Below are positions 11,085-63,284 of a DNA stretch of 64,000 nucleotides, one piece after another. A program made the position numbers and the translations under genes. Origin of the DNA: Lineolata rhizophorae. Lineage: Eukaryota > Ascomycota > Dothideomycetes > Lineolatales > Lineolataceae. The stretch spans positions 854,215-918,214 of the forward strand of contig MU001682.1 in assembly GCA_010093515.1 (NCBI GenBank), in the 5' to 3' direction. The number at the start of each line of letters is the position of its first letter. The first letter of the stretch is position 1. The notes beneath the pieces were generated by a model. It saw only the letters and a program-made list of their open reading frames with translations, was not told the origin of the DNA and did no database searches.

Positions 11085-12588
11085 TGGGCCCAGAAGGGTG
11101 CCGATTTGGATTCAGCCTGTCACATTAAGTTGCTCTACCATTGCCATCCATATGGCTCAGTTTACCTGCGGCATTATCCTGTTAGGACATCGACATTGTG
11201 GCGTCCAGCCGCAGTTTCTCTTTGTTTGCTCGGATTCTCTTCTCTCTCGATATCTGGACGTGGCTTTCTGGTTTCAATGCAGCAATAGGGTCGAACACCA
11301 ACAGTGGCCTTTATCCACTCATTCCTGGCTTCTGACGAGTCCGGTTTTCCTTGTTCTCTTTTTCATCTGTTTCTCAGTCCGAAAGCTACCGTTGGGGTGC
11401 TCTAGTAGCCGCGTGTGGCTGCTATATTGACTAGACTGGATTCGGAGTCGGGGTTTTCATGATACCTCTGTCGAGACCAAACGATGCCTTTTTTTTCTCA
11501 TCGGCTATTCGTGAGAGTTAACTATCACCATGAGGTCTTTACGGCCGCAGACGTTCCTTTACCAATCTTTTCGATCATCTACCTACTTCTAGCCTTCCAG
11601 AATGTACCACGATACCTTCTAAGCTTGCAATGCCGTACATTATCTGTAATGGCATGCATCTTATGCCGTTTCTAGTATTGCTTGGAATACATGTAGACTG
11701 CTGTATGTGTAACTGTCTTTGACTGTACCTTGTCAATGCAACGACCACGGCATTGTTACATGACTGCCAAACCGTAATGTACTTCCCACTAGAATGGCCA
11801 TATCTCGAAAAGGTGGTGGTTGCCAGCCGATATTAAGTATTGTCACCACATCCGGGACGTACCGGGATGGTCAACTATCATGGCAACGGCCACATGTGGT
11901 CGCCACTTAGGGGCGACATCATGAAACTTCGAATACTTTCCAGTTGCAAACTGCAACGCAACCTTAAAATTACTACTCATTCCCTACTTAGCGGTCTACA
12001 GCACTCTATACAGTTTACGGTACGCAGTCGTACTTCACTTAGACGGCATTGCACTTCCAGCAGGAGAAAGTCCGAAATCAAGCTTTATAGCGCAGTGGCA
12101 CCGCTTATTTATTGATCACTTCAGCACTGTTCCTGCCTGGCGAGGTGTAGTTCAAACTAAGTGCCGCAGTGCCACTGCCTGTGGTAAATTCTCCTCGGTC
12201 AATCTATATGGTGCAGTCGTGCTTCTGGCAGATTAGACTAATACTAGCAACGCACCAGCATGACGAATGCCGGCTCAATCACCAATCACCGTTTGTTCTT
12301 TCTACCTTTCTACAACTTCCACTTCTCAGATGGGGATCCATGGGGTTTTTACGCCTGCTAACGACCTGTAGTAAGTCGTGTTTTTTGAACGACTTTATAT
12401 ACTCATTTGTCGTATTCTGATTAACTCCCACTTACGCTATCTACCGAAAGGCCAACATGGCCTGTGTACATTGAGCGGCTTGAGAGTACTTATGGCTCAG
12501 TGTTGAGACCATTGTCAAACGAGCTCAAGATGTGTTATGTGATGACAATGGCGCTTATAAGAGTAAAATGTGGCCGTGCTGAATATAG
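11085..12588. other. 3' flank of the F-box gene, no gene seen
   Basis: Base composition falls towards AT-rich from about 11100. Only short, unconvincing open frames occur. I see no terminator-like or RNA-gene signal. This is the start of a 12.4-kb gene-free stretch that reaches the permease gene. Confidence 0.5.
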
Positions 12589-12683
12589 CACTTGAAGCAA
12601 GAGGAGGAGGGGAACAAAGTCGGACTCTGCACCTCCACGTGGTGTTCCCTGGTAACTGCCTTTGGCAGGCCGACGCAGAGACG
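12589..12683 (+). repeat. Dispersed repeat, copy 1
   Basis: About 90 bases, with the core at 12597-12660, match the reverse complement of 58551-58650. The core GCAAGAGGAGGA is followed by shared blocks including TCGGACTCT and CCTCCACGTGGTGTTCCC, and about 87% of positions agree over the best 63. The class of repeat is not recognised. No clear ends or target duplications were found here. Confidence 0.6.
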
Positions 12684-13384
12684 CAAATTTCACACCAAGC
12701 AGCCTCAACATGCCGAGTATTGATCGACATTTCAATTTTTAATCCGGACCGCCCGTTGTTAGGCACAGTCGTACAATAGACGACCCAACGAACACAATGT
12801 CATGTCTCGTTCCATGGGACCGACAAACACCATGTCGCAACAATCAGCATCTTACGGAAGACCATATTTTGCTCCTTTGGCGGCTATACGACGCAATTTC
12901 AAGAGTATGGCCGGCCTTGTCGCTAATATAAGAAAACGACAATAGATCCGGCTCTGTGGCTATCGGTTGGACCTTTCGACCGTCGATCAAACTATGGTCG
13001 CCCTCATTTTCTGGCCTTACAACTCCAAGGTCGGCCCAGTCGTACATTCTGAAACGACTAAACAAATAATGCATATCGCACATGCGATTTCTCTGCAAAA
13101 CATACGGCATATTCCGGAGTGGGAGACAGGTTCACAGGAACTCTTGGCGGAAAATAGATGGGCTGTGGCTTGCCGATTGAAGGACAAGATGTTGGATTAA
13201 TGGGGCGGATTTCTGGTGCGTAGAGGCCATTTTATGGACTCTCGTGCTAGAGGTTCTGCTTCATGATCTAGCAGTGCAAGTCCGCTTTCGGCGAGTTATC
13301 TAGCTAGCAATGTCGTTGTTTTGTTGGCTTGTGTCCTCTGAAGCAGGCTAGCTTATGCCCTACGAACCCGAGGCCACAGTGAAA

Positions 13385-13905
13385 GGATCATGGCTTGATG
13401 GTGCTGTCGCTTTTGGAATCCACCGATTCAACAGGCCACTATTAAAAGGCCTTCGTAGCCAAGGTACTTCGTCCTATCGAAAGTTTTCCAAGGTGGTAAT
13501 ATCATGGGCGGACCAAGTTATTTCTTCTTGCAAGAAGCCAGCCAGCGCCTAGGCAAGAGGCAACTGCATGGCTGGGTGGTGCTGCCGTTTTGAAGCCCAT
13601 TTAGAGAAGGGGCCGCTACTAAGGGCCTTGAAAGAAAAGGGACCTCGCCCTCCGGAAAATACTCAAAGATGGCAAATATCATGGTCTGCCCGGCTTCTCC
13701 ATTCCTAGAAAAAGCCACCAAGGTCTGGGGAAGAGACAGCGGGATGGTTGGGTGGTGCCGCCGTTTCTGAGGCCCACCAAGAACTGAGGCCACTATTGAA
13801 GGTCCTTCCAAAGGAGCACTTGTCTTTGTGGAAGACGAGCGGTCCATCATAATGGGCCCATCGCAAGGGACACAATCTCCGTAGATTGTAGAGATCTTCC
13901 GCAAA
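13385..13905 (+). repeat. Tandem repeat, three degenerate copies of ~177 bp
   Basis: Three units share recognisable blocks in the same order. GGTGCTGTCGCTTTT at 13400 is matched by related sequences at 13578 and 13754, giving periods of 178 and 176 bp. Each is followed by an element like GGCCACTATTAAAAGGCCTT. The copies are strongly diverged, so the array is old. No frame is conserved between units, which argues against a repetitive protein. Confidence 0.65.
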
Positions 13906-14379
13906 CAAGGATTATAGTTCTAACCGAGAACTAGCGGTAGGCTCTCGGGCAGTTCTCGACCGCCACGGGCCAGCCGGGGAAGTCTTCCGTTCCACCACTT
14001 CGATATTGTTAGCAGATTGATCAAGTACAACTCTTCTTTCTTCGACATCTGCCATACATTATCTGTGTTGGTATGTCAAGATCCGTTGATGACGAACTGC
14101 TAGCCTCCTCGTGGAAGACCCTAGAGCCAACTCCACATCACCGCCATGCTCCATCATGCGTCAGCATCTTACGGCAGCGGCCTAGACCATTGGTCACAGT
14201 GCCCGAAGATTGAAGCTAATGCGGCTAGCCAAATGGATGTGTCTAAGTACATGAGGGAATAGCCACTCCCTGTGGCTAAACTCTTCATTGACAAGGGACA
14301 ATGTATCTGTTCTCTTTCCTTGGACTTCTCCAGCAGGGACAATTTGTTCCCTCTTCTTGAACTTTTGCTACAAGGAATC

Positions 14380-14610
14380 ACCCTTTCTCGGTTTTCACCC
14401 GCATGCCACGTCCGTTCCCCACATCCTTGCGCTCCGCGCGGGGCCTTGCGCAGCATGCGGCATTCCTCCTCAGCATTGTGTCGTTTCGCACGAGGTTATC
14501 CTGAATCTCCTGTGCACCGCCACGCTCTTCCTAGGCTTTGACTCGTGTGCGCCATTCTTCCTCAGCGTTATTTTTCCCGCACGAGGAGGCGACTTGATGC
14601 CTGCCAATGT
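14380..14610 (+). repeat. Old partial tandem duplication
   Basis: A segment containing CTTTCTCGGTTTTCACCC (about 14383) and CATTCCTCCTCAGC (14461) recurs in diverged form from about 14526 (CTTCCTAGGCTTTGACTC) and at 14563 (CATTCTTCCTCAGC). Both copies are followed by CGCACGAGG. Spacing is about 100-145 bp. An open frame at 14288-14779 crosses the duplication but shows no recognisable domain, and I do not call it a gene. Confidence 0.45.
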
Positions 14611-15191
14611 TCCCCCCCAATTTCCTCACGTTCGGCTTCAGGAGTCGAACTTTTCTAAAGCCTTCTGCGGCGGACGGGACCCTTTCGATAGGGATTCAAA
14701 AGGTTTGGAGGTGTTGTGGCCAATGAACCACGTGATCAAAGATTACTATGCTTTTCGCATAGACAATGTGCTTTGGTAGGTATGTGTAAGGCGATCATGT
14801 TCGCCGGTGCCATCTCTGCCCCAACAAGATTAGCTACCGGCTCGACCAACTGGTCCGGAGCTTCACATACTTGCCGTCTCGCAAAACTCTTTCGGCCTCG
14901 AGCTCTTCGAGTCCTTCAGGCTCCTTTTCTGCCTCCTCCAACAAAAGATGTCCCCGTCCAGGCCGTACTTGGGATCGGGGATTTTCGGAGCCAATCCCCG
15001 TAAGGATGGCTTATTCTCTGCCATGCCCTACTCGGATGCCAGGCTTTCCCTCCAATTCGCAGAGACTGCTGTGGCGTGTCTGCGGCGTCGCAGACGAATG
15101 AATCTTGTTCGCAGTCGTTTTGGCGGAGCCAAGTGTTTGACTGGCAGGGACGGGGTGGCGCCGACGTTGACGAAGGGTGGTCTATCAGACA

Positions 15192-15577
15192 TAGTCGAAA
15201 ATTATTCGACTAAAAAATTTTGAAGTGAAAGTTCCACTAATACTCCCTCCCTGTCCGGGCAGTTCCTCTGAAATTTCAATTCCCGGAACATATTGTATAC
15301 TTGTCGCTAGTTTCCCTAGATCCCCTTCATAAAGTCGTTTGACGAACGACTATTTCACGATCGTCCCAGTCGTGTGTCGCACGACTACAAGAGATTGATG
15401 TGGCACGGGTCCGCGCCACACATCATCTCTCGTATCTTGGCCGGTCCATCGACACGCAGGCTTCGCGCTTGCGAAGAATCGCATGCTTAGCATCTGTGCC
15501 CCGCCGGTCGATCGTATCGACCATCAAATTCCGAAAGTCGTTCGTGACGACTATTTAATAGTCGAATATTGTCGACT
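15192..15577. repeat. Cluster of AGTCG...CGACT hairpins
   Basis: Five short inverted repeats share one design, an arm containing AGTCG, a short loop, then the complementary arm containing CGACT. They lie at 15192-15212 (8-bp stem, loop 5), 15333-15351 (7, loop 5), 15368-15386 (7, loop 5), 15536-15552 (6, loop 5) and 15560-15577 (6, loop 6). A sixth hairpin of different sequence (GGTCGAT, CGT, ATCGACC) lies at 15506-15522. The shared arms and loop length indicate one family, not chance palindromes. The region encodes nothing recognisable. Confidence 0.7.
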
Positions 15578-15665
15578 GTATACTCGTCCAAGAAATCGGG
15601 ACCAACATCGACATGTCGCGACGTCCGCCGGACATGACTCCACGACAGGCGCCGCCCAGGTCGTG

Positions 15666-15760
15666 GGTCACGCGCGGCCATGACCCGCCGCGCCCGGCAA
15701 AGGTCATGCGCGGCCATGGCCCGCCGAGCTCAGCAGGTCATGAGCGGCCATGCCCTACGA
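15666..15760 (+). repeat. Three ~35-bp tandem units with GCGGCCATG
   Basis: Units start at 15666, 15702 and 15736. Each begins GGTCA, continues with a variant of CGCGCGGCCATG, and the first two then carry CCCGCCG. Unit lengths are 36 and 34 bp and the third is incomplete. The array directly follows the AGTCG hairpin cluster and marks a sharp rise in GC. Confidence 0.6.
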
Positions 15761-18705
15761 CTGGAACGCCGCGGCTATCGTAATTGAGTAAGCCGTGCAC
15801 AGCGACGGCTGGGGGGGTGTGGCGGTCTGAAAAGACGAATGAGGTGGGGAAGGCATGGTGATGCCAGAAGGTGTGGAGGGTGGAGATGTGAGAGGTAGAA
15901 GGAAGGGTGGAGGTGTTGGAGCGAAAGGCAGCGCTTTATAGCGCAGCCGCGCGTCCGGTCATGAGGCAACCACGGATCACGGTGAGGCGTCTGAATACCA
16001 ACGTCACCAAATGCTGGCGAGATTTATTGTTGTCGGCCCTGTTAGATCTCAAAAAGCGCCATGGTGACAATATCATTACTTGGAAAGGCTATTTATCCCT
16101 ATCGGCATTCAGAATGCCTCACGCCCTTTGGCCACAGTGGCCCATCACCTAACCGCTTTTCAGAAAGCCCGGAGATACATAACGGCCGAAGAGCTTCACC
16201 TTTTCCGCCCAAGGAAGGCGATGAACTCGCACTCACATTTCGAACTACAATTCCGGTATTCCGATACTCAGAACGCCCTACACTACCAAGGCTCGAGGGT
16301 TTTACGTGCCATTATGCTTTCAGATAGCCTCACAGATGTACCTCAGAAAGGACTCCTGAAACTGAGAATGCTGGGGCATTACTAATTGTGTGATCAGTTT
16401 TGAACACCTATTTGGTCACCGCATAGTTCGAAATATTTGCTGCCAGCTTTGAATTGCCTCGCACAGCCGAAATTCGGGAGATAAGGCTTCGCTCGGCAAA
16501 TTGGCGCCATCTTACACAGCCTGGTGAAGTTGTCTCAGGAAAGGAGACTGATGTGCTCACAATTCATGGTCAAGAGCAATGTAAATGATACATTGCACCA
16601 TTCAACGTATGGTATGAGCCATGTGCACGACTAGGTTAAAGACAAACCTGCCGTTTTCATGTCCAAGTCCAACTGGCATATCGATGTACTATACATAGAG
16701 TTTGATGTTTGGGACCGCGTAGTCGTTGATCCGACCAAGACCTTACGCTGTCGCCAAATCACGATGCAGTTCTCGTATTCCAACCCAAATATGGATGAAT
16801 ACAGGGACGAGGTCTCCATGGCCGTCTTTGGGCAATGCGAGAACTGACCATATCTCCATGGAAGTACAAGTTTTTCGATCAGGACCACAACAATCTATGC
16901 TTTTATCTCGTGGCTTTGCGCCGCTTCTCCAGATCACCTATACATGACAGCAATTAAAATTGCAGAAGTAGTGATCAGCCTTCATACGGCTTGAAACCGC
17001 TGCCAAGCACTGGGTTGCTGCTTTCCTAGGACACATTCTTGTGGTATGATCATGTCCGTCATTCGGACCCACCCAAACACAATTTGCAGATCATGCACAT
17101 GGTCTAGCTCCACCCACGGTCTCTCGTGGTATTACCCCAAATACTGCTTCAACTTAGGCTTATTGACATCTTCTTATGCCCTCCCTTGCAATGGCTTCCA
17201 GGAACGAGGATGCTCGATCTTTGATCATGTCAGACACACATGGCATGAAGGCCAACTACGAAGACCGCGAGCATGCCTTGCAAAGGCTAACACTAATGCC
17301 AACGCAAATGTAGTCCTCCACTGTGGACTTGACGAAGAGTAGCGCACTACGCGAAATCGAAAGCGCGGTCGCTCGGTAGTTTAGGGTTAACGGAAGACGA
17401 GGAGGCGACTAGGAGTATGGTAGTATACCGGTACCTTAGTTATATAACCTATAGCACCTATTTTTCGAGGGTACTAAGGTATATACGATTCTTGTCCAAG
17501 GATGTCGAAAAGGTTAGCGAACGGACGGACTACGGATTCAAGCAGTTCTTTCGTATAACAGCCCCGGAGCCTACAATGCCGGTATACGACAGCCGGACCG
17601 CGATTATCCTTTTCAAGACTATAGGAACCGTTCTCGGAGCTTCGGCTTGTCATCACCTCCAACAATGAAACCGCGTTCTCAGGCTGTCATTACCTTCTAG
17701 CCAGTTTGCAGGCTATTTCATTTTCTTCTTCTTTGTCGGAGGACTTCACCGAGTGCAGTTGAATAGAGTCCATTATTATGGATCAGAATTAAGTCGTCGG
17801 AGGCCAGGTGCATCTCGGTAGTATCCTAGAGCAATCCCATCTTCGTAGGGAAAGTTCCCCGACCCTTCGGTATATGCAATAGATAAACGGCATTAGAGTC
17901 CGGCAAGTGTCTCGACAATGACGAAAATTCTACCCTGTCTTCGCGGGGCCCTCCTTAAAATAGAAAAGCGCACGAGGAAGATGGGCGCTCGGAGTTAAGA
18001 GGTCAAGTACACACTCTGTAGGCAAGATTTGTGTGAAATAGAGCACTCTTGCTCGAGCACACAACATTCGTTGTTTTCCCATATCTTGAGATGGTAAATG
18101 GTGTCTAGATGCTTCCGGTCAAGTATTGTCATGGTCGGTCTATAGCAGAAATGAACATGGTCCAACTAAGCTACAAGACAATACAGAATTGCCTTCCCGG
18201 CAATAGGGTTATAGATACAAGAAGCGGAAATACACCGAACGCCTCTTCACCACAGCTTCCTGAACTGATACCAGCAAATTTCGGAGATGACAAATCCACA
18301 GAAATAATCTCGGATGCCGGAATTCTTATGCTGTCACTTCATTCGGCCTTACTCCTACGTAGGATATCGATTCTAGTACACAATCGGCAGCATATACGCC
18401 ATTTCTTATTGGAAACCAGGAAATATCGACAAGTCGAAGCGCAATATAGGTTCGGAACGAAGCTATGGAATCCCTCCGCCAGTCCTTCAGGAGAACTCTT
18501 TTAAACAAGTACACGAAGGGTCGAGAGGGTACCGTGTTCTCTGGGTGCACGCTCGGCAACTTCAATGCGAATGATCCCGGAGACGATCCCTTCATCAACA
18601 AGCGAGCTATGTCTTGAGTTCGAGCAAAAGCCATCAGGCACGTATATCGATCCGCTTGAAGGACCAGATAAGACACTTCGCAAGACGCAAAATGCATGCT
18701 TCTAG
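15761..18705. other. Gene-poor stretch, nothing firm
   Basis: Only short frames without recognisable domains occur (for example 17417-17668 and 18109-18504). The motif CTCAGAA, followed one base later by GCC, recurs loosely in 16100-16350. An 8-bp inverted repeat (ACCTTAGT and ACTAAGGT) flanks about 17434-17490. I cannot assign a function to any part. Confidence 0.4.
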
Positions 18706-18710
18706 TTTTT

Positions 18711-18820
18711 TGTTAGGACTAGCGTACCATAGCCTGCAGCTAACCAACTTGGCCAAAAGACTGGCACAGTATCGCACTTCAGTGCGATGCTGCCGGCTAG
18801 GAACTATATATACACTAACA
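18711..18820 (+). mobile_element. Solo LTR-like element, copy 1
   Basis: A 110-bp element begins TGTTAG and ends CTAACA (the TG...CA rule with short terminal inverted repeats). It is flanked by a 5-bp direct duplication, TTTTT at 18706-18710 and at 18821-18825. A second copy of exactly the same length lies in reverse orientation at 63175-63284, about 94% identical. These are the marks of solo long terminal repeats of an LTR retrotransposon. The TGTTAG end and small size fit copia-like or small non-autonomous (TRIM-type) elements. No internal retrotransposon region was found in the window. The element is a fossil of moderate age. Confidence 0.8.
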
Positions 18821-18898: not shown

Positions 18899-19500
18899 CT
18901 GTCCGCCAAACGGACGACATAGCTGTTTTATGTGGAAGAAAGCACAACAAGTGTTGCACTTCTATGTCCTCTCGCTATACCTATGCTCGGTGTTCTATAA
19001 GCAAAATACCGAGTACTTGAAGCATGCTGCGCCGCGTGGTGGCTACCAAGACAACAAAGCAGGTGGTATCGAGCCAAGTCGTGGTCTTAAAGACCACCTC
19101 AATAAGAGAACCGTCCGTCGAAAGGACAACATAATTGCCCCGTGTGGGAGTAAATATGCATTGAATATTCGCGTTTCTTAACAATGTCCTGTCTTTGGTT
19201 TCATACAAACAAATACCGAGTACTTAAAACATGTTGTGCTTGGTTGTCGTTTAGAAGACCATAAAAAGGACAGCATTGGACCATGTCGTGGTCTAATGTC
19301 TATCTTAATAACAAAGGACCTGTCCGCCAAAAGGACGATATGAATGCCGCATGTTGGAGCAAATAAGATTCGGGTTGAATTTTTGTGTTGCTTCGGTAAG
19401 TCCTACGTTCAGTATCGTATGAAGAAAATGTCGAGGACTTAAACATGTTACCCCTCAGCTGCGCGGCATTTTATCCCCGTAAAGACTTGGAGAAACAACA
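18899..19500 (+). repeat. ~210-bp tandem repeat, three copies with palindromes
   Basis: Units start at 18899, 19111 and 19320 (periods 212 and 209). Each opens with a short hairpin (GTCCGCCAAACGGAC in the first unit), continues through a diverged middle with ATACCGAGTACTT in units 1 and 2, and has a GTCGTGGTCT block towards its end. In unit 1 that block forms the 17-bp palindrome GTGGTCTTAAAGACCAC at 19081-19097. The array starts 74 bp after the solo LTR target duplication. No coding frame is conserved across units. Confidence 0.7.
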
Positions 19501-23514: not shown

Positions 23515-26500
23515 CTAGTCCTCCTTGCGCACGTACTCGACGGGCCCAACATACCTAAACCGGCCGCGCACAGCAAAATACGCGATCGAGAAGGTCACAA
23601 CAGCGCTATACACGAGCACGTTCCAATTCATGCTCTCGGGCGTTACCTTGCGCGTCTGCGGGAAGAAGCTCATGATGAAGACCAGTGTGAGAAACAGGAC
23701 GCTGAAGATGTTGATGGGCAGGCCATAGCGGCCCAGGCTCCATCGCGCTGGCAACAGTGGCTCCCGACGCAGACGCTTCAAGATCAGGCACGAGATCGAC
23801 ACGATATAGGACGAGATCAGCGCACCGGTGCCCAGAGAAGTGATGATGTTGAAAGCGGCCGTCGATCCGATATTGATAAGAGCAAGGAGCACGGCGATAG
23901 CGTAGGAGAGGAGGACCGCGTTGAGTGGGATGTCCCAGCCGGGGCGAACCTGATCGGGAGAAATACATCAACAATCGGTTTGCGAGAAATAAACGCGACA
24001 GAAGAAGAAGATGTCGAGGACAAAATCCACGGAAGCCCGAAACTTACATAACTCAACACTCCCGAAAACGGCAAGCCCTTGTCCCGTGCAAACGCCCACA
24101 CCTGCCGACTACTCGTGGCGACATTGGTCACGTTTCCAAAAATTGCCATGATAATCATGATGCCGGTCATGACGCTCGCGGCCGCATTGCTCTTCGTCGC
24201 ATTGTAAAAGACTTGGATAAACGGCTGTCCAGTAGGAGTCGCCAAAATGGCCTCGATATCGCCTCCCATGGTCATGCAGAACGTGACGATCATGACGAAG
24301 CCCATTCCGCCGTTGACCAGCGCCGTAGCCATCATAGCGCGCGGCAGCGAGCGACTTGCGTCGCGCAGCTCCTCGCTCATGTGCGTGGCGGAGTCGGGCC
24401 CGATGAAGGAGAACACCGGGGAAAGCATGCCGACGAGGCAGGAAAGGCCGACGTTGCCCCAGCCGCCGCCGTCGGTGAAGGTGAAGAAGACTGCACGAGG
24501 CTCGCCACGAGGGCCGAGAACCCAGAGCGGGATCAGGATGGCGAAGAAGCCGAAGATGTGCAGGACGAGAACGATGCCTTCGACGAGCGGCAGCCGCGAA
24601 GCCAGGAAAGAATTGAAGATCTGGCAGAACGTGTTGATGGCGATGATCAGAAGCGTTTGATGCCAGCGCTGGATCGTGTACGAGGGGTTGTTGAGGACGG
24701 CCAGGCCGAGGATTTGCGACGACGCCAGGAAACCGATCGAGGTGTTGCCGACTTGCCAGCCGAGGACGCAGAGCCAGCCTGGATGGAACAGGAGATTAGC
24801 ATGTTAGAGCTTGGATGTGAGGAGTCAGAAAATAGTCGGACAAACAGATACAACTTTAAAACGACCGCACTCAAAAAAGATGGGAGACGTGGAAAGAGGA
24901 TTAGAATCCTCTAGAAGAAAGCAGTGTCGAGCCAAGATGCGCAAAAGCATGTCCAGGAAAAGAATGGACCCGTGGAAGCTCTCATCAGCGAATAATCCTC
25001 ACGACCACTTGTTGCACCTCCTCACCCCAGACCGCCCTAAAGGTCTTCTCGAGGGGAATCGACGAAGGTGAACACACATTATGTTCCCTCGCCAATTCTT
25101 CCAGCCGAGCATAGCCTCGGCTCGTTCGAAATTCCCATCACCCGACAAAATTGGTGGTGGAATCGCCGGCGAAGCGAAGTGCCTCATCCTTTCTTCTCTC
25201 CTCCGCGTTCCGCCGATAATTACATCGGCTCACACAAATTTGTCCACCGTCCGGAAAATGTGGGCGCTGGAACGAGCCATCGGATCGTTGTAACACATTC
25301 TCCGCCCGGCTCCGCTCCCGCCCAGCCGGTCGTGAAATCGGCTCTCGAACATCGACTCTTCTTTGTGATATGGTGGACCGGCGTTGAAGAAAACAGCGTT
25401 GAAGAACAAGAGGAAAAGATGCAGAATGGAGAACGGCACGACATCACCGAAAAAGAAAGGAAACATGTTGTTGTTGTCTCCTGCGCGCAGAGTGTGCAAG
25501 AAAACATGTGCGCGCCCATTTACGACACAAAGGAAAAAGAAAAGAAATATCATGTTGCCTTCTGCGAGGGGAGTGTACGGGAAGAACCGTATACGCGCCT
25601 ACTCACCGACAATATAGCTCAGGAACTTCTGCGCGCGGCGCGGCGCGAACTCCGACACCCAATGATACTGTCCGCCCGTTGTCGGCGCCATGGAAGCCAT
25701 CTCAGCCATGGACGCGATGGCCGCGAGGAAGCCCGTGAAGGTCCCAATGTAGACCCAGATGAGGCCGCCGGTGCCACCGTTGATGAGGCCGAAGATGTTG
25801 GCGCTGGCATTGGAGAAAGATGTCAGTCAAACGTACAACCTATTCTTGAACAAAAGGCAAAAGTGTGAGGTCAAGTCTTGAAGCAGCGCTGGGATTGTAG
25901 GACACGGTAATCGACGCGACTAGAAAACCCGTCCCCCCGCCTGCCTGGGCAGATAAAACGAAACAATCCACGTTGTAGGGAAGCGCAGCGTCAACAGAAG
26001 CAGTAGCGGCAGCAGCAGTGATGCAGTGCGGCGATGCCTTAGTTGTGTGGTCTGTACGACGTGGAAGGCGTGGCAGGCGTGGTCCGTCGGGATCTGCTGT
26101 CCGCGCTGCTGCATGCGGGGAGACGTGCAGGGTGGGCATGCAAGCCACCACGCCGGGGGTTGCAGATGGTGGGGAATGGGGCCAAGCAAGGGACAGGAAA
26201 GTCGGAAGAGGAAGAAAGGGAAGCTGAAGCAGATGGAGGGCGGGACCCGTGGAAAAGGCGTGGCAGATGGGTAATCGGACAGAGTGCGTGGATAACGTGA
26301 CGACCTCGAAGACTTGGGGGAAAACGACTCGAGAAGAGAATGGAAAGCCTCCGGAAGAGGAACAAAACTGCGGCGGTGCGCGGTGGCAATTCCCACCGCC
26401 CACACAGCCGCGTAGGAAACAAAATCAACCCGCAAAACGACTTACCTCAACTGTGCCTCCCACGTCGCCATTAACACCATGGTGAAGCCGAAAATGGACA

Positions 26501-26768: not shown

Positions 26769-29028
26769 GGTGTCGAGCACTAGGGCGTTTCTTTTGTGCG
26801 GAGACGCGCGTGCGGTGTTTGGCGGTCGAGGCGGTGGTGGGGAGGGAGACGACAACCGATTGAAGTCGAGAGCAGCTATCCGAAATTTGAAACAAGGAAA
26901 GGCAAAGAGAGCGAGCGTGGCCCTGGCGGACTAATTGATGCTATCGCGGTCGCTTGCGCCCAGGATTGTATGAGGAGGGAAGAAAGAGTAGAGGAAAGGA
27001 AAAGAGTGTATGAGGAGCGGCCGGCAGGAGGCTAAATACTGCGGCCGACGCAGAAAAAGAGATCTGGATAGATCGCCTAAGACTCTAAGCTCAACCGTCA
27101 CAATACTGCGTGCGGGTGAATGATAGCTCAAGTCAAGCGCATCCACAACGACAATTGGGCATCCACAGGCCGCACCTAGAAAGATATTAGGCCCTGCAAA
27201 CAGCTCGCCTTAGTTAGCTACCCGCAGAGCTAAGCAGCAAGCCAAACTCACCTTCCCGATCTATTCCCTCCTCCGAAGAGAACAGACGATCTAACGGACG
27301 ATGCGCCACCCACGGCTCCGGGCAGAACGATCGAAGACGACACAGAAATTGTGGAGGTATACCCGTCGCAGCTCAATTGCAATTGCAATATGCAAAGTAA
27401 GGAGATGCGAAGGGCTCACTCAACCCAAAAGGCGGAGCAGAAAGCAGAGTAGAGCTCCGCTCAGGAAAGGACAGGACAGGACAGGGCGAGACATGCAATC
27501 AAGGGCAGCCAGCCATGCATCCGCCAGTGCGGAAGGTATCTTGATCGCCGTCCGCCCACTGGCCAGAACGCCCCTGGCACGCCACGACCCTGCAAGTCCG
27601 TCCATCCATCCACGCAACCCGGAAGCTCGGCTCCGCCCTCCACCCATCTCCTCAAAGCCATCCGACCCGTCCTACGAGACATTATGAATTCTCCGAGCGC
27701 GCGCAGCAGCTGCGGGACTCGCGTGGACGGCAAGGATGAGCCCATCTCTGGCGCCCCTCCTGGTTCGCTGGAATGATGCATGGGCAGCGCAGCACCCTCT
27801 GCCGATCCCACGACCCATCCACAAACGCACGCACACATACTAAAGACGCAGGACGAATAAATCCATCTCTCCAGACCAGTGGCGAGCCTCTGCGCCGCCC
27901 ACTCCACTCGCACTAGAAGCAAATGAGCAGCACAGACACGCATGCCCACACGCCTACCACCGTACCATGTGTCCCCGCCAGCACCTCGCCTGTCTAGCCT
28001 AAGGCCATACTCGCGCGACTGACGCATACGGCTGGCCGCGCAGGTGTCGATCGACGGTGTCGCCCACCTTCTCGCGCGCCGCCGCACCCCATGCACGCCG
28101 ATTGCGCGACCCGGGCGATCAGGGAAACATCGCGATCGCGAGGGCACGGCTTAGGTTTCGCCACTTGCGCTGGAATCGGGGGCCGGGGGGGCTGTCCGTC
28201 AGTCTGTTCCTCGCGCCGTGGGGAAGACGGGCGACTTCGTGCAACGGGGCGGTCTGATGTCGACTCGATCGCTTGGTCCGCAGGCGGATAACTCGGCGAT
28301 GACGGATATTTCCCGTCGCCGAGCCAAGAGACCCCTCTGTTCGCAAGGGACCTGGACGTTGCACCGCGCCGCCTCCACTCTCCAACGGCACCTTCTGCCG
28401 TCTTAGTGCCTGGCTGAAGATGGACGTGGTGGGCCCGGCGCCATGCGCAATGCCGTTCGTGGCACGGGCCCTAGTCTTGCTGGTCTGTCGTGCCCCTTTG
28501 CCTCAGTCAGTGCTTCGACGCATCTCCGCTCTGTGCAACGATTTCCGGCCTCCCGTCCCCCGCGCGGCTCGCAGCATCTCTGGCGGGCGCTGGGAAAGGC
28601 CCGGCTTTGTTCGCTCGTGACGCGGCGGGCAAGGGTGTCCTTGCCTGCCTGAGAGCAGCGCGGCTTCTTTCCGCGGTGGTCTAGTGAGGATCCTGCCGAA
28701 GAGAATAAAAGGTGCGAATGAGAAGTGAGAAGTGAGGAGTGAGCAGTCAGGGGGAAAGATACGTCCCATGGAACAATGTTCGATTGTCGTGGAAGCAGGT
28801 CCCCGGTGCCAAGGGACTAAGGGTGCAAGCAAGCCAATGGGATGCAAGATTGACGTATCGGGCAAAGCCGGGACACCCGGATTGACAAATTTAATTAGCG
28901 CCACAGCGTTCTCTCCCGCCAAGCATCGCTGTTGTCGAGGTTCCATTGTTGTTTGCCGCTTCGCCTTGCACTGGACGTCCAATGGACTAATACTCCGTAA
29001 TTCAAGGAGTTCTCTATGCATATCATCC
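26769..29028. promoter_or_regulatory. Upstream region of the permease gene
   Basis: This 2.2-kb stretch must contain the permease promoter on the minus strand. It is GC-rich between 27300 and 28700, with many overlapping frames that I regard as noise, including a 228-codon minus frame at 27461-28147 with no ATG start. Simple repeats are AGGAC x3 at 27468-27482 and four copies of a GAGNAGT heptamer at 28720-28747. No clear TATA box was seen. Confidence 0.4.
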
Positions 29029-29210
29029 CAGCCCACTATCAAAGGGCTTTCGCAATATCCCCTTATTTACTTCTAACGGAGTAATTCAGCCCGCTATCAA
29101 GGGCTCTTTCCACAGTACCTTAAAGCACATTGCTTCTGGCGGAGTGTCTCAGCCGACTAACAAGGACTTAAGAGAATACCGGCCTATATGCAGAACTTAT
29201 GCGAGCAGAC
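29029..29210 (+). repeat. Three ~60-bp units with CAGCCC hairpins
   Basis: Units start at 29029, 29087 and 29150 (58 and 63 bp). The first two contain a small hairpin with AGCCC and GGGCT arms around a loop with CTATCAA, followed by a diverged tail with ACGGAG or GCGGAG. The third keeps CAGCCGACTAACAAGGACT but has lost pairing. The design resembles the larger array that begins 400 bp downstream. Confidence 0.55.
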
Positions 29211-29589
29211 TATAATACATCGCATGTCGGTTTCCACCTCTCTTCCTGACCTTTTCTCCCAGATCCCTTTCTCCCCTTCTTCCACCACTCTCCCGCCCCC
29301 ACCAACCTACGCCGACTCGCAGCTAGCATCCAAAGAAGGAAGGAAAAGGAAGAGCATTAGTGCTTCCGGTCCAAGCCGGTCGAGCTGGATTGACTCGCAG
29401 ATTGTGGCGTTCTGCGCCCCTACACCAACAGGAGATGCGTCGCCTCGCCAACCAGTTATCTCTCTATTCCACTTCGGTCTGAGCTAGACACTAAGAACTG
29501 TCAACTCCCATGGATGTGGGGTGAGATCATGTCCAAAGACACACGAAAGTAGATGCTAGGAACGTAGTCTTGTAGTCGAGACTTGACAA

Positions 29590-32500
29590 AACGTTGCATG
29601 CACAGATGTTCCCAGACTCATTTATGTCTCGGGGTCCCGCCCTGGGGTTAGCAAGTCATCTGGTGACAAGATCATGTACGGACTGGACAAGTACCGTGGT
29701 ATCTAACCATGTCATACTATCTTATTCCCTTCCCACACGTTGGTGGTCTCGTGGTAGAGATTTAACTAAGGAAGGCATGCGCAGATATGTCTATTAATGC
29801 GTATGCCTGGTGTCTTTGGCGCTGGCTGAGCAAAGTTTCTGATATGAGAACATTCACGTCCTAGATCGACACCTTGGTAGCTAACTGCGTCAGTCTATCT
29901 TCATCTCTTCCCACATGTGGGACAGCCGCCGAAGAGAGCGGCTCATACACTCTTCCAGTCGTCCGTTTTATGCCGCTTTGCCTCTGCACAGGCAGTATAC
30001 ACAAAGCTCGAAGACCAAGTCCACCATAAATATGGACTCAGAAAAGACTTAGCCTATATTCCGCACTGCTGTCCGACTTATATTGGAGGTAAACGTCCTG
30101 TTCAAGTAGATATGTCTTCTCTCCTTCTTTTCTTCACCTTTCTACTTCCTCTCCGCATCCCCATATTTAACCTCATATCCTCTGGACAGCCGTCTAGAAG
30201 AGCGGCTTATCTCACTTTCTAAGAGTCGGTATGCCGCCTTGCCTTTGTACAGGCAGTATACGCAGAAGTGCCAAGTCCGTCCGAGATATGGACTTTAGAA
30301 AGAGCTTACACTGTACTCTACGTATCACACTGATGTCGAGCGGATCAACCGTCTTAAAGAGACTTAAAGCTATATGCCAAAGTCTCGCCAAGTTCTCTCC
30401 GCAGACGCTACATACGTGGTGGGAGAGACGGTCGAAAATACGGAGACATCGAATTTTGCTCTTCTCTTCATTGACACCTTCGCAGGTGTGGGACAGCCGT
30501 CAAAGAATACGGCTCATACATTACGTCCGACGGACAGTAGATTGAAATACCACTTCCAAATATTAATGTGGTCTTGAGAAAGATCTGGCCGATATAGCGT
30601 GCAAGCACTCGGACATCGGCCGGACTGTCTCCCGTTTTATTTTGCTTCAGTCCACGGGCAGTGGACTTCGTACGTGTGCGTCAAATTGCCGCGGAAGAAA
30701 GCGGCTTACACAATAATATTCCGTATACGCGGAAAACATGTCACTTTTTCCTCTCACTCGACTGACCCACGTCATTCCTTTCGAATACCATATGCGTCAT
30801 AAAAAGGAAACAGACGGAGAGACATATGTCGCTCCTTGCTTTTTTCTCAAGCACGACCTTAACCGGACTTGTATGTCTACTTGAGGATTGTCTTACACCA
30901 GTAGATATCTTCTACTTGTTCCTTTCCTTGCTTCACCCACACATGTTTTTTGACCTCCACGTACGAGACAGCCGCCACAAGATGCGGCTTGTGACGCTTT
31001 CTCTACTTCTTCTTACGACACGAGAACACAGGCTTCACATGTTCGTGCGTCGTCCGCCTAAGAAAGTGGCCATATACTACTGATGGCCTGCACATACAGA
31101 GCAGTGTCAGTTTTTGTTTCTTTTCCCTCCACTTCAAAATTTCTTTTAACTGCCAATGAGAGAGACAGCCGGAGAAAAGAACGGCTCATACATTGATGCT
31201 GGCGCGCCGGTATTCTCCGAATAGAGAAACATGTGTCCCTTCTTGTTCTTGCTCAACCACATTAATAAGGCATCGGGTCGTGGTGGGAAACGCTGTCCAA
31301 AGATTACCTCATCACTATGCCTCTGGAGCTGGCGTCCTGTACAGATGGAGACTCCGCGCATTTTGCTCTTCCGCCGCTATAGTCATGCGGGTGTAGAGAC
31401 ACGTCACTCTGCTGTTTTACCCGCTATACCGCCAAACAGGCATCGTATGTGTAAGGGAATAGCAGTCGAAGGATACGACTGATACAGTATGCTCGGCAAG
31501 TTGGTACATGAGGTCGAAACAAGGCCTTTTTTTCATCTCTTTTTCTTCTACTCCTGAAAATTTCCCTTGTCATGTCGATTTCCAGTATTTTGAATTCCAA
31601 TACAAAGGATAGCCGTAGGAGAATACGGCATGTAATATGGTCCAGCCAACGGTTGGAATTACGGAAATGGCTATTCCCAGCCTAAAACATTCCTTATACC
31701 CTTTCCTCACATCTCCGCAAAAGTACATGGAGGAAACTACTCCCAACCAGGACAGGATCCCCCCCACGACCTAGAGGTACCTGTTCCAGCCATTTTCGTC
31801 GCTTTCGTCTACCACATCCCCGAGTTGCCTCCAAGCCTGACCTTCTTTGAAGAGAATATGAAGGGTGACAATCCGTCTTCCAATAATTAGAGATTCAATT
31901 CTAGGACATTCAATAGTTCAGACGCGTCGACAGTTACAATCCCGGTTCTGCTACTTGACAATTACTTTCCCAGTTTAACACGCGCTCGCTCAGGAAGAAG
32001 GAATCTTTATCCCAAAAATAATTCTGCGAACAAAAACATGTTTGGACACGCACCCATTCAGGAAGGAAGGATCTCCGCCAGCTGTTCCAAGGACAATTCT
32101 TTCAAGACATGTATGCGTGAGAGAATAGCTTACCAGAGCGTTTGTTCAAGACGCCTTCCTACTGTCCTGAACAATTCCACATATATCTCCTTTCTTCTCC
32201 TTCCGCCGTATACGTCCACAATCCCAATCTTCCGATGTGCGCAGAGTGGCTCTTGTCTCTCACTTAACTCTTACCGACATGGCCTACCCAGGATGCGTTC
32301 TTCACACCCTCAACCATTTATGAGTGCTCATTTCCCCAACTGCGCGATGTACATAACTCGCACAGCTTCGCTTTCCCGTATTTCGGATAGCCGATAATAA
32401 ACGCGGCCGCAAGAGAATGCCCTTTCCTCTTCCAATTTTCTCCGCCGCACATATACCATAGGAGCATAGATGCTCTCTCGCATTTAGCGGGGTCTCCCGC

Positions 32501-33440
32501 CTCTCTGAATCCCTCACTTTTAAGTTTTCCATACGCAGGATTGTCGCCCAGTACAGCGACTCGTTGAGATTAATACTCTTTGAAAACTTTACATGTCTGC
32601 AAACACTATGCTCCCTTTTTCCTCACCTTTCTCTGTTACATACACGCATTTACGGAACCTTTTAATGTGGTTGGGCTGGCTCTCTTACATTCTACACCCC
32701 GAGCTGGGTTGGCCGCCAATTAGCGCGGCCTATTTAATGTCCTTTTTATGGTCTTGACATATCGATAGATGTCTTCAGCTCTCTTTTCCTCGCCGAAAAC
32801 GAGCAATTGAAACCCGCTGCTTGCGAGCTTGCTCCATTCCCTCTTATACTTCCGTTCACATACAAATAGCCGCTAACAAACGTGGCTGGTATGGATTCTC
32901 GGATCCGCAATTTTTTATCTTCTTTTTGTTTTCATTCTCACCTCCACGTACGGAAGGGAGAATTCCATGTTAGAATGCGTGAAACGATAGTCCTTTTATC
33001 ATGGACTCCTTCGCAATAGATGGCTCCCGACAAGCGCGGCCTATACATTTCCATCCTGGCTATTTTCGCGAATGTCGCCTCTCACCTCCTATTTCTTTCT
33101 CCGCCCATTTACACATAAGCTATCTTTTCATGGGCATGGGGTCTATCCTTTCGAATGCACAGTTTCCCATGGCCGCTCAGTAATGTGGCTTCTACAAGTT
33201 TCTTTGTTGGTGTATCGTACCCATCCACAAATGTCGTGTTCTCTTTTTTGCTAGCCACAATTGTGCCCATAATTAAGCATATGGCCGCCACACGATGCGG
33301 CCGTACAATAAGGAGTTTCTTCTTCCTCTTTTTTGTTGCACGCGTAACTGGCATCTCTGTGTGTGAGATGACTGTCACCAAGCACGGCCTTTACAGGACA
33401 CCTGTTCATGCCTAAAAACATCAAAACATTACTTCTCAAT
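29590..33440 (+). repeat. Degenerate tandem array with recurring 6-bp/8-nt hairpin
   Basis: A motif like GACAGCCGCC followed by GCGGCTTATACA recurs in one orientation at about 29921, 30185, 30341 (weak), 30492, 30684, 30967, 31049 (weak), 31164, 31457, 31608, 32387, 32707, 32864, 33019, 33170, 33280 and 33368 (weak). In most copies the arms (AGCCGC/GCGGCT type) form a 5-6-bp stem around an A-rich loop, mainly 8 nt. Spacing is often 150-157 bp or about twice that; the first units show a 179-bp period (29597 and 29776) and one pair 264 bp. A C/T-rich tract usually precedes the hairpin. Between hairpins, blocks such as CAGGCAGTATAC and TATGGACT recur. Copies are strongly diverged. No protein or known RNA explains it. 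Confidence 0.7.
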
Positions 33441-36400
33441 TTCTCTCAGTTCTTTATTCATATCACTTTCATACATCCAAATGAAATATTTGATATGTGG
33501 GCCTATCTTCTGGGACCGTCCTTCCCTTTTTTTCTACTTCGGTCTCACATATGCGTATCTCAATCTAGCCGCCATTCATGTACGACATGAGCTTCTGTCC
33601 TCCCACGCAATGCGATCAATGGAATGGTTGCTGCCGGCATCGTCGCACGAAAAACTTTGCCGGTGGGCCGGGGCCAAGGGTGGAACGGCTCATTGTGGCA
33701 CACTGGAGTGGTTGGGAAATTACGGGGTTTTGTTTGTGAAACCTGAATGTGGATCGGTGCATGGGTGGCTGCTGCGTAGGACGGATTTCCCGGATACGAC
33801 GCAATTGATGGCCGGATAATTGTTCTGTTCTTTTTGTTTTTGCTTTGGATCGAATGAATGCTCTTGATTTAGTTACGTGTTAGCGGGCCAAGCGAGACCC
33901 AAGGGCGAATAGCCGCGTGAATCAATAACAAATCACGACGGAAGAACGATGAACGGATGTTGCAAGGAGGCTGTATGATATGATTGCAAACTGATCGCTG
34001 AGGGTCGAAGGTGCCCTCTGCCTCCTGGCGGATATCCAAGGGGATTGGCATCACGTGTTCTTATATCAGGTGCCTTTCCCCATGCGGGAAAGGACCCACG
34101 TGATATGGCTCAACACTATGGTAACATTACACCAGGAGGTCCAAGTGCTTCTTGGTCTGATGGTGCACGGGGGATGGTGTATGCCAAAACCAAGGTTTGG
34201 TTTTGTCCTCTTCGAGGAGCAAAACATGGCTCTATGGTTCATGTCCTTTGAGGACATTTTTGATGGAATTTTGCATTTCTCTGGGCGATGAGCTCACAAC
34301 ACGCAAGGAGAGGCACGAGTGGCATTTTATGAGAGCTATGAATTCCGCTGCTCCGAATTTTAGAGGAATTGGTTGCCTCTGTATGCGTTTTTGGTACTGG
34401 ACTGACGTCGTCTTGGACTAGTGGGGAGATGTCGAGGGGATTGGATACTGTCGTTTTCTTTGCAGTTGGAACTTGGAAGCGCTGAGTTCTGCTTCATATG
34501 AGGGGGCAAAATTGCGCAATCTGCAAGGCCACGAAACCAGGCAGATCGAGATTCACGTTCGCGGAGAGCAATCTTTCCTTCAATAACTGGCGTGGGTCTC
34601 GCTTGGGAGGACCTCACGGAAGTGCGTAAAGGAGCCACTGCGAAGACGGTCGCTCAACACTACGTTTTGCAACTTTACATCCCTGCAGCAAACAAGATAC
34701 GATCTCTCGTGCGTATGCAAGCATATTCATGGGAGAAGTGGTGCCCTGACTCTGCGGTTGGCCCAGCAGAAGGGCTTTATAACTTACGTCCCGTCCGCAT
34801 AGGTCTGCCTAGTCCTCTTCTTGCTCGCTTTGTATGGGACGGTGTGTGTGCTCAAGTCGTGTAAAAGATAGGTACATGGCACTGTCGGCGGAAAGAATGA
34901 TGCCCACACTTTCCCTACGATATTGTACTGTCCCCGTGGGACACAAACATTTCAAACACAGCATGTGGAGCTGTTATCCCCCCCCGACTTCACAGTTCTT
35001 TTCTTGGAGGATCGACAATGTCTTGTCCGCGAAACAGTTGGCTTAAATAATCATCATGGCTTGTGGGAGTCTCAAAACTTCAACTCATTTCTATGGGAGT
35101 TTCCCAGAGTACATTCTACTTTGGCATGGGAACAACCTCCTGCACGGATAACAAACTTCCAAGTTCAGCTCACATGAATTCCACGATACTAGTCTACCGC
35201 CAATTCGATGTTATGTCCTTCGAAAAGGTCACGAAGACTAAGATTGTGACTGAAAAATTTAGCGCATGTTCGTGAATTTGTAAAAAAGACGCCGGACAGA
35301 CACAATATGCCTAAAATTGCCATGGCTCGGAGCGTTTCTAAGACAGTATAAATTTGCCGGCCAATTCATAAATGGATGTGAGACCATTAGTACAACACGG
35401 CAATGCGGAGCATATCCCGGACACGTACAGCTATGATACGTACGGGCTTGCCGGAAATGTCCTTCAATGAGACATCATCGTGATTACGCTACACATTCTA
35501 CGTGGCGTATGACTATTGACGACCAATGACTGACCGTAGTTAAACTAATGAGCTGTACAGCAACTGCGCAGACCATTATGAAGAGCGTTGTTTAATCTGG
35601 GCCCGCTACAGATCTGTGTAAGGAACAAAATACAATTAAAATTGGAAGCTGCACCATGAAAAATATGCCAAATAAAACGGGGTGGAAGCCATTTTTCTAC
35701 TTTTTCAATTCGTCATGCATCTGCACACTTCTGTAAAGCATATCTTGAAAGCATATCTTCTTAAGAGATCTTCTAGGCCAACCATTTGTTGGCTTTCAAC
35801 GATGAAATTGGTCCGAGAGGCGTAAATAAGCCATTTACCAAAGGTTAAGGACATTTTTGGTTGGTGTTTGTAGTCCTAGGGAAATTTAGGCATCAAAAAA
35901 GAGCTCCCACTTAGTCTTGTGTTCGAATCAGATACCCACTGTTCACGTGGACTGGTCGACTTACCTCTTGCTACAAGCAAGAATGGGTGAGAATTTTAAT
36001 CTTTCATTTTATGGCAATAGTCACTCTTGTGTATATCTTGTATTGTTTGTGATACCATAGTGCCGTCATTTCATTTATCTTCTTATTTTGATCAACGTTG
36101 GCCGTGTAATTTCGTTCGCATTTTTTCTATTTTTCCCATTACAATTGACATTTGTCTCTTAGATCCTGCTGCTCAATATGCCTTGAGGTGTCTAGTTTCG
36201 ATCGCACTCTCAGCTTGATGTATCTCCAGACGCTCTTTGGCTTTTTGGTTGGTCTTTTGATGTCGTGTTCTTTGGTTTTCTATACCTTCTTTCTATTAAT
36301 TCCCATGCTATCTATGGACGATAAGGCCATCGGAGGAATGTAAAGTCTCGAGCAAGTGTCTACGTAAAAGAAAAAACGGCCATTTGAGAAAGCCTACAAT

Positions 36401-37991
36401 CTACGAATAAGGCAAGACGTTTAGGACCCTTGTTCGTGAAAAGAGCGTATCGCATGCATAATGGTGCCTTAATAAGTTGCGTCTCAGTTCTCAGACTCCT
36501 AGGAATTAGACGTAAAGTAGTCAACACTGAATGCCAGCGGAAACTAGATTCCGAGATAAAAACTAGTTGAGGCAAAATATATGGACAACACACAAGAATC
36601 TGAAAAGGCGCTACATTTCTTCGGGTTTGAGAGATACCATCGCTGCCCGCTAGCACGATTGGAGCGATTTCGAATGCACTGCCTTAGCGCAACCCTACAA
36701 CGTCTCAGGAGTACATGGCTTTCGTTGTTGGGGCGCAAGTTCGCCGGCTACACTAATTCGTTTTGTGTTTTCCCACCCTTGGGGCTCGCGGAATACTAGT
36801 AATTTAGGGATATGCGCTGAAAAAAAGCTGCGTAGGACAGCACAGCAGCATAATATTTGATATGTTGGACAGCATACGGTACGCAGTCGATATTGGCCCG
36901 TGAAAAACCTGGAGGAGAGCCAAGTGTGCTAGAAGACGTTTTTTGGTGTGATTAGAAGCAGTGGGGTAAGTCATGTGTCATCAAGACCAAAGAAAAATTT
37001 TCGATGGCATGGGCACTTCGAGCTATGGCGGAGGGTATCTAGAGCATCGCAGCGGCATCAGTCTGCCCATAGTCATCTGTTCTTCTTAACTCCGCGGCCC
37101 CCACTTTCTGCCAAGTCCATTTCTTGTGCTAACAAGCTTTCTGCTTGACAAAAGCGACCAATCGCAAAGCTCTGCAGCTGACCGGCGGCATCCAAACATC
37201 TCAACGTCCCTCACGCATCCTTTTTCAACTTAACTTCGCACGACCGGTCGCACAGAATCCTCCGCGCCCTCTCTTAGCGCACGAAACTTGGGAGCGTGCA
37301 TCTCGTACGCGCCTGTTGCGTCGCATGCGTGCAACCTCAACGTTCGTTAGACAAAGCCGCTCGACCTAGGTGCGCAAATCTAGCGGACAAGCGGCTCATG
37401 AGCTTTGCAGGGTGTTTTAGGGCTTTTGAAAGTGCCGAGGTATCGCGAAGCGATAGCATTGGTTCACGGGACGGCCGTACGGGGTAGTTGAAGAAAGACG
37501 ACGGTCGTAGCAATGCCGTTGACTCATAACGTGAGATCCTTCCTGCATCCAGGAATGACTCTGCACTACCGGCACGTGACGCCAGCAGCCCTAGATATCT
37601 AAACGGAGCCAGAGGACACCTTCCACCCTCAGCGATCAGTTTGCCAATATATGCTTCCGGCCTCTTTGAATGATCTTTTCATTGTGCATTCATTGTGGTT
37701 TGATTGTCGATTCACGCCTATTCGCCTTGCTCTCCTTAGCCTGTTAACAGTGGCGGGCGATACAGAAGAGGCCTCAGTACAACCATACTCTGCGGTAGGT
37801 TCAAAACAATGCCATATTAATCTGTAGAGGTGTTAGCGAAGGAGGTGTGTGCTTGCTAGACAATATCTTGTGCTAATGAGAAGAACGCACCCCGATCGCA
37901 GAGTCATATCACGCAGATTCCCGTCCAAGCATTATCCGAAAGGCGACAACCCGACTCGCGATCGCCGAAGAAACAGCCAATTCAGCTCGCG
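33441..37991. other. Gene-poor stretch with scattered palindromes
   Basis: No gene is supported. Short frames at 33481-33819 and 34592-34864 show no known domain. Besides the nested hairpin at 34050-34104, ATGTCCT-TTG-AGGACAT occurs near 34240-34256. The 35600-36400 part is AT-rich. Bases 37130-37480 are more GC-rich with short frames that I could not identify. Confidence 0.4.
34050..34104. repeat. Nested hairpin with CACGTGAT arms
   Basis: The outer arms are ATCACGTG (34050-34057) and CACGTGAT (34097-34104). Inside them CCTTTCCC (34073-34080), a 5-nt loop and GGGAAAGG (34086-34093) form a second perfect 8-bp stem. Two perfect 8-bp stems in register within 55 bp are unlikely by chance. CACGTG is also the bHLH E-box core, so two binding sites are an alternative reading. 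Confidence 0.65.
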
Positions 37992-57594: not shown

Positions 57595-57632
57595 GGCGGT
57601 CCATGGCCGCAGTAAGGCCAATGGCCGCTAAA

Positions 57633-63174: not shown

Positions 63175-63284
63175 TGTTAGCATATATATAGTTCCTAGCC
63201 AGCAGCATCGCACTGAAGTGAGATACTGTGCCAGTCTTTTGGCCAAGTTGGTTAGCCGCAGGCTAGGGTACGCTAGACCTAACA
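63175..63284 (-). mobile_element. Solo LTR-like element, copy 2
   Basis: This is a 110-bp element in reverse orientation relative to the copy at 18711-18820, of identical length and about 94% identical. The ends are TGTTAG and CTAACA. A 5-bp target duplication GATTG flanks it at 63170-63174 and 63285-63289. Different target duplications at the two loci show that they inserted independently and were not copied by a segmental duplication. It is a solo LTR of the same unknown, probably copia-like or TRIM-type family. Confidence 0.8.

Follow-up and report, generated by a model that had tools for sequence, protein, structure and literature searches.

Does an array of small hairpins in fungal DNA reflect an RNA structure kept by selection, or a repeat in decay? 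The question is raised by a locus of Lineolata rhizophorae (Ascomycota; Dothideomycetes) lying in a stretch of 64,000 nucleotides, hereafter the window (assembly GCA_010093515.1, contig MU001682.1, positions 854,215 to 918,214 of the forward strand; coordinates below are those of the window). Analysis of this DNA revealed 17 copies of a single kind of hairpin, all in the same orientation on the + strand, within non-coding DNA at positions 29921–33395. The stem comprises 6 bp, and the loop is 8 nt long in 16 of the 17 copies (7 nt at 31464). The first bases of the 5′ arms are located at 29924, 30188, 30495, 30687, 30970, 31052, 31167, 31464, 31611, 32389, 32542, 32711, 32868, 33022, 33171, 33283 and 33370. 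An initial annotation, made from the letters of this DNA, had reported about 15 copies in one orientation with an A-rich 8-nt loop, and both points were borne out: A accounts for 51% and T for 12% of the loop bases, with A more frequent than T in 15 of 16 loops (one tie). The array is real, unusual and modestly covarying. The explanation that we favour, at a probability of about 0.42, is that it represents repeated stem-loop modules set on pyrimidine-rich linkers in a putative non-coding RNA.

The abundance of the hairpins is well above that found in shuffled sequences. The pattern AGCCGC-N8-GCGGCT was matched 11 times with up to two mismatches (shuffle mean 0.08) and 13 times with up to three (0.99). 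Stems of 6 bp (G·U allowed) closing an 8-nt loop were found 9 times, compared to 1.75 in shuffles (maximum of 7 in 300), and those closing a 5-nt loop were likewise elevated (7, compared to 1.73; maximum 6). Using a leave-one-out profile, from which 31464 was excluded, 12 of 16 copies outscored every one of 118,344 background positions, while for the copies at 31052, 31611, 32542 and 33283 there were 10, 1, 9 and 3 background positions, respectively, with an equal or higher score. A profile derived from the 5′ half of the array placed 3 of the 8 copies of the 3′ half above all background, and the reverse training placed 6 of 8. The covariance-model scan that had been proposed for the genome and its relatives was run within the 64-kb window only; it recovered the 16 members of the model itself and no additional significant copies (best further match, E 0.77).

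GAY, the hairpin and nnTAnA together make up a conserved unit of about 29 nt. Six columns of the unpaired GAY and TA.A contain 0.49–1.04 bits; all six exceed the 99th percentile of the null distribution (0.44) and five exceed the 99.9th (0.61). Mean pairwise identity among 16 copies is 0.68 and 0.76 for the two arms, 0.61 for GAY, 0.42 for the loop and 0.38 for the six bases 3′ of the stem, and falls to 0.26–0.32 beyond the element (random 20-mers: 0.254, standard deviation of the mean 0.011). The 20 bases directly upstream (0.32) are therefore still somewhat alike. Since the copies were found without using GAY, TA.A or the A-rich loop, these features escape the selection bias attached to the arms.

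Pairing in the stems was then assessed in 101 pair cells (six pairs in each of 16 copies and five in one), which comprise 85 Watson-Crick pairs, 7 G·U, 2 A·C and 7 other combinations. An alignment of 16 copies, omitting 31464 because of its 7-nt loop, has 90.6% of its cells paired, compared to 85.3% in shuffles, of which one in 500 reached that level. Both bases of the pair are altered in 9 cells (3.2 in shuffles, with none of the 500 reaching 9); the covariation score is 0.331 (0.227; 2 of 500), and three pairs contain such double changes (1.6; 19 of 500). With all 17 copies, 89.2% of cells pair and 10 are changed on both sides (shuffles 3.7, 0 of 500), as counted in an alignment in which MAFFT placed 31464 out of register, judging by eye. 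Arm covariation, for which the annotation had asked for a statistical test, exceeds that of the shuffles; the signal is real but modest.

The individual copies illustrate this variation. All pairs are intact in copy 1 (29921–29949), copy 5 (30967–30995), copy 12 (32708–32736, with the outermost G-C replacing A-T) and copy 16 (33280–33308, outermost pair also G-C). Arms that differ and still pair, noted earlier for at least three copies, were confirmed at 31463, 32868 and 33171 and found in additional ones. Copy 8 (31463–31481), which lies outside the 16-copy alignment, has the arms CAGTCG/CGACTG, in which the third pair of the family, C-G, is T-A; the same pair is T-A in copy 11 (32539–32567), whose outermost pair is broken. 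The inner pair is altered on both sides to T-A in copy 3 (30492–30520), and the innermost is T-A in copy 9 (31608–31636), where the outermost is broken. Wobble pairs occur in copy 2 (30185–30213; six pairs, one of them U·G), copy 13 (32865–32893; one G·U) and copy 15 (33168–33196; two G·U). The remaining copies are less complete: copies 4 (30684–30712) and 7 (31164–31192, innermost broken) retain five pairs and copy 10 (32386–32414) four; copy 14 (33019–33047) has one mismatch and one U·G, copy 17 (33367–33395) one A·C mismatch and one U·G, and copy 6 (31049–31077), a weak member with a covariance-model E of 0.03, one mismatch and one G·U.

These linked changes bear on the possibility that the copies are clustered palindromes in DNA (CCG-N10-CGG) to which a dimeric protein, e.g. 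a zinc-cluster regulator, binds. Fungal zinc-cluster proteins use CGG half-sites, and CCG and CGG are indeed present in the arms at constant spacing. However, half-sites should vary independently, and here the changes in the two arms are linked, even in the third pair, which lies within the presumed half-site and has both of its bases altered in the copies at 31464 and 32542. A non-coding RNA is favoured over such a cluster, which we consider very improbable, because a DNA-binding site leaves the linked changes unexplained.

Under the RNA reading, the locus would be either the gene of a non-coding RNA or a long untranslated portion of a transcript, in both cases probably from the + strand. Its module of about 29 nt (GAY, a 6-bp stem enclosing an A-rich loop of 8 nt, then nnUAnA) would have been multiplied about twenty times when units measuring, very roughly, 150 bp were duplicated in tandem long ago, and selection would keep the modules while the pyrimidine-rich linkers diverge. 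The sequence itself shows the repeat, its geometry, the covariation and the conservation of the unpaired flanks; we infer that the locus is transcribed, the strand, and that protein is bound or any function exerted. As for mechanism, each stem-loop might be recognized by one and the same RNA-binding protein, the linkers would hold the modules apart, and the array could act through multivalency. The C/T-rich tract reported ahead of each copy is measurable as a pyrimidine content of 66% at −50 to −10, compared to 56% (none of 3000 random sets reaches this value); the enrichment is weaker nearer the hairpin (−30 to −5, p 0.046).

Folding was examined for single copies and for the locus as a whole. 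When each copy was folded in isolation, as a piece of 41 nt (38 nt in the case of 31464), its own stem formed with four pairs or more in 15 of 17 cases; copies 2 and 17 (30188 and 33370) were the exceptions. A number of results in this and the following paragraphs weigh against the RNA reading. The fold of 29000–33600 as a single RNA (4.6 kb, pairs spanning up to 50 nt) contains the own stem of only 8 of the 17 copies, the arms of the other nine being placed elsewhere; fold prediction for long RNAs is uncertain, but the result weighs against isolated modules. The copies were picked in part by their arms, so arm conservation carries selection bias; the covariation shuffles ignore kinship between copies, and further pair types are not elevated (7, compared to 6.8 in shuffles of the 16-copy alignment). 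The conserved island is not perfectly sharp, as values above 0.45 bits also occur beyond the element, in columns −46, −21, −16 and +13. Evidence on the strand is weak: 7 G·U compared to 2 A·C cells (one-sided binomial p 0.09) lean towards an RNA of the + strand, and the folding z is −0.59 on + and −0.37 on − in the array, but the rest of 24–37 kb leans the same way (−0.20 and −0.07). Neither AATAAA-type signals nor intron-like patterns mark a strand, there being two of each per strand; the intron-pattern scan is uninformative, since it recovered none of the control introns of a neighbouring permease gene. A general outer stem was considered and rejected: single folds gave GTGTG/CATAC and CATAC/GTATG (the latter in the flanks of copy 13 itself), but matched flanks do not pair significantly better than mismatched ones (permutation on +, p 0.09–0.58 over eight flank sizes, the best being 0.09).

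The remaining points on this side concern spacing and flanks. The initial annotation had described intervals that are often 150–157 bp or twice that. This is true of part of the array: 6 of 16 intervals measure 147–169 bp, an accumulation with a p of 0.009 when any bin of 23 bp is allowed; five of these lie within 32389–33171, and two others (307 and 296 bp) are close to double; but overall periodicity has a p of only 0.08, so that spacing is regular in part only. Tandem Repeats Finder, suggested for a period of 150–180 bp, detected no repeat in the array. Homology of flanks between copies is weak (z above 2 in 13% of 136 pairs upstream and in 10% downstream), and beyond the 29-nt element flanks are mostly unrelated, with some exceptions (29924/30188 and 29693/29871). 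At least three units, all on +, retain a homologous flank but have lost the hairpin, which is broken in the second and third, its loss and the right-hand limits being judged by eye: (i) 29693–29770, with a 51-bp flank 76% like 29871–29921, (ii) 30415–30450, with the CGTGGTGGGA flank (family D3), and (iii) 31279–31315, with the CGTGGTGGGA flank (families D3 and D9). Maintenance therefore does not cover every copy. Accordingly, the view that flanks have diverged more than the hairpin applies on average, but not to these three units, and the suggestion of selection on a structure is supported in part: the covariation, the unselected GAY and TA.A and the A-rich loops in one orientation speak for it, and the loss of the hairpin in some units speaks against it.

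Such units are expected if the array is an old tandem satellite decaying without function, in which the hairpin is recognisable since the copies were found by it, and in which template switching between the arms fixes mismatches and makes paired changes in a single step. As a tandem satellite the array gives a mixed picture (no repeat found by the program, alignment of some unit pairs and partly regular spacing). Other degenerate tandem duplications are present nearby, at 13389–13807 (period about 178 bp, 69% alike) and 19004–19449 (207–214 bp, 67%), and perfect hairpins are in excess throughout the window (170, compared to 110). The process is described, in the portion of PMC8794818 that treats it, as creating and maintaining hairpins, and its products resemble the array in that paired arm changes can result from one mutation. 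They differ in what lies beside the stem: template switching pairs the arms yet would not conserve unpaired flanks, and neutral decay alone also leaves them unexplained, which is why a non-coding RNA is favoured. The G·U pairs are not predicted either. No inverted loop was seen in the array, which counts little, because in the data given in that portion of PMC8794818 inversions are rare even where compensatory changes fit template switching. This rarity and the whole-stretch fold weigh against the RNA reading and in favour of template switching or decay, which we nevertheless regard as somewhat unlikely.

The unrelated flanks would also suit a mobile hairpin, i.e. a short palindromic element inserted repeatedly, like the GC clusters of mitochondria or repetitive elements that form hairpins. 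GC clusters, in the sections of PMC4478555 devoted to them, are similarly short, GC-rich, non-coding palindromes with a constrained stem; they exist in many identical copies and are dispersed, mitochondrial and flanked by short direct repeats, whereas the copies described here are divergent, clustered and nuclear and, by eye, not bracketed by such repeats, and an element of the GC-cluster type was rejected on these grounds.

A count of every 5-base arm able to close a hairpin with 3–14 nt in between lends the mobile hairpin some support. Across the window AGTCG ranks first in significance (10, compared to 0.79 expected) and AGCCG second (12, compared to 1.53). After removal of the array AGTCG is still first (9, compared to 0.73) and AGCCG fourth (7, compared to 1.34), with maxima of 4 and 5, respectively, in 400 block shuffles, several of these outside hairpins being clustered and hence not independent, and the AGCCG matches at 3718 and 10275 lying within long open reading frames (ORFs). 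Outside the array, AGCCG-N10-CGGCT occurs four times (0.12 expected; maximum 2 in the same number of block shuffles). The mixed arms AGTCG/CGGCT and AGCCG/CGACT were each seen once. A kinship of the outside hairpins with the array is possible, but they are without GAY and TAnA and give no significant match to the array covariance model (R1). In addition, a mobile hairpin leaves the homologous flanks of certain pairs (29924/30188 and 29693/29871) and the partly regular spacing of 147–169 bp unexplained; a non-coding RNA is favoured for this reason, and repeated insertion appears quite unlikely.

Among known systems, the array resembles the A-repeat of Xist, a mammalian long non-coding RNA (lncRNA), in having short modules set apart by linkers; no homology is claimed. 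As described in the relevant passages of PMC5742192, this repeat consists of 26-mers (7.5 copies in mouse, 8.5 in man) with U-rich linkers between them, and stem-loop structure, not sequence, is reported to be crucial. Stem-loop modules that pair despite sequence change are also found among the copies in the window, with three units stemless; as to linkers, the region from −50 to −10 has a raised pyrimidine content, and in the whole-stretch fold nine copies out of 17 have their arms outside their own stem. Compared with the repeat in those passages, the array differs in sequence and in its loop (8 nt, as opposed to an AUCG tetraloop), and it has longer linkers and far more divergent copies. 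Candidate structured RNAs of fungi (presented in parts of PMC5640933 and PMC8216456) are similarly non-coding and supported by covariation. Those of PMC8216456 are, in the part that deals with copy number, predominantly present once per genome, and the main text of both papers contains no word beginning with repeat or tandem, unlike the repeated array. If transcribed, the locus would add a novel form to the RNAs built of repeat modules; if also conserved, it would offer a fungal counterpart of repeat-module lncRNAs in organisms where deletion tests are quick. Since about twenty copies share one locus, it would then also provide a natural test of whether paired hairpin changes come from selection or from template switching.

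The array was compared with known RNA families and other candidates. Rfam 15 gave no match at gathering score within the window; in 28500–34500 there were three chance-like sub-threshold matches (E up to 5), the best with E 0.058 and 24.8 bits (gathering score 76.8), and none to the hepatitis delta virus (HDV) models at E up to 5. No transfer RNA was detected. H/ACA small nucleolar RNAs have a long hairpin with a guide pocket, followed by an ACA box; this identity was rejected, as the stem is 6 bp without a pocket, the trailing TAnA is the sole likeness to a box and an Rfam match is absent. A protein-coding repeat was likewise discarded: no stop-to-stop ORF longer than 168 aa overlaps the array stretch, none spans it, and only 4 of 16 intervals are divisible by three. 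Decay driven by repeat-induced point mutation was rejected because the indices are not of that type (TpA/ApT 0.85; CpG observed/expected 0.96). The exact pattern was matched twice in viral contigs, which was taken as chance, no second hairpin being seen within 600 bases around each match. Among the papers listed by searches of the open literature on fungal structured or repeated hairpin RNAs, none announces a nuclear fungal hairpin array in its title or abstract, which is not proof of absence.

The array is located in DNA without a spanning ORF, between the permease gene and a pair of inverted repeats. The gene extends on minus from 26768 to roughly 23.5 kb and contains introns (delimited by eye); its assignment to a permease family was judged from the translation. 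The inverted repeats, which adjoin the array, are about 180 bp long (33878–34057 and 37573–37749), 74% alike and about 3.5 kb apart; they are possibly the ends of an old DNA transposon. A second type of hairpin, AGTCCA-N9-TGGACT, occurs within the array at 30018–30038 (+), with further AGTCC/GGACT arms at 30274, 30649 and 32989, and two hairpins, AGCCC-N9-GGGCT and AGCCC-N8-GGGCT, lie upstream of the array at 29030–29110.

A mini-array of three 20-nt hairpins with AGCCGA, CGCCGA and AGCCGG arms, 108 and 113 bp apart, is present at 25103–25343 (+). It is without GAY and TAnA and sits in intron 2 of the permease gene; this intron is about 800 bp long (limits by eye), which is long for a fungus. 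Eight further hairpins at 12374–15560 have AGTCGT/ACGACT or AGTCGA/TCGACT arms, one with a single mismatch, and loops of 5–10 nt inside the 6-bp arms.

A 64-bp repeat, 89% alike, is found at 12597–12659 (+) and 58593–58656 (−), and it overlaps two HDV-like candidates, 12609–12680 (+) and 58559–58643 (−). These score 31.2 and 27.9 bits, compared to a gathering score of 44, with E values of 0.069 and 0.41 in the whole-window search and of 0.0045 (12609 +) and 0.015 (58643 −) in short searches. Between the two copies there is, by eye, one paired change each in the presumed P2 and P4, P2 being outside the Rfam structure line. In fungi, HDV-like ribozymes number 230 representatives in 26 species according to the survey data of PMC5640933 that concern them. 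The motif CCTCCACGT occurs four times in the window, in both candidates and in the array at 30954–30962 and 32941–32949 (0.34 expected), which may be chance.

Two other parts of the window are rich in hairpins. One, 15000–15900 (13 perfect hairpins in 15–16 kb, compared to 1.8 in shuffles), has a lower folding z on the minus strand; the other, 57000–58900, is very hairpin-dense, lacks an ORF of 150 aa, also has a lower folding z on minus and contains the 58643 (−) candidate. The 12609 (+) candidate lies about 2.5 kb before 15.0–15.9 kb, and a link between them is doubtful because of this distance and because the opposite strand folds better there. It is conceivable, at long odds, that this fungus has a family of genes or elements for hairpin-rich non-coding RNAs, built from stem-loops with AGYCG/CGRCT arms, the array being its most expanded member. 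In view of the candidate inside 57.0–58.9 kb and of the one ahead of 15.0–15.9 kb, such RNAs might then be released by self-cleavage and act as multivalent protein scaffolds or spread as RNA.

Finally, an inverted pair of 110 bp, 94% alike, was observed at 18711–18820 and 63175–63284, and is perhaps a dispersed mobile element.

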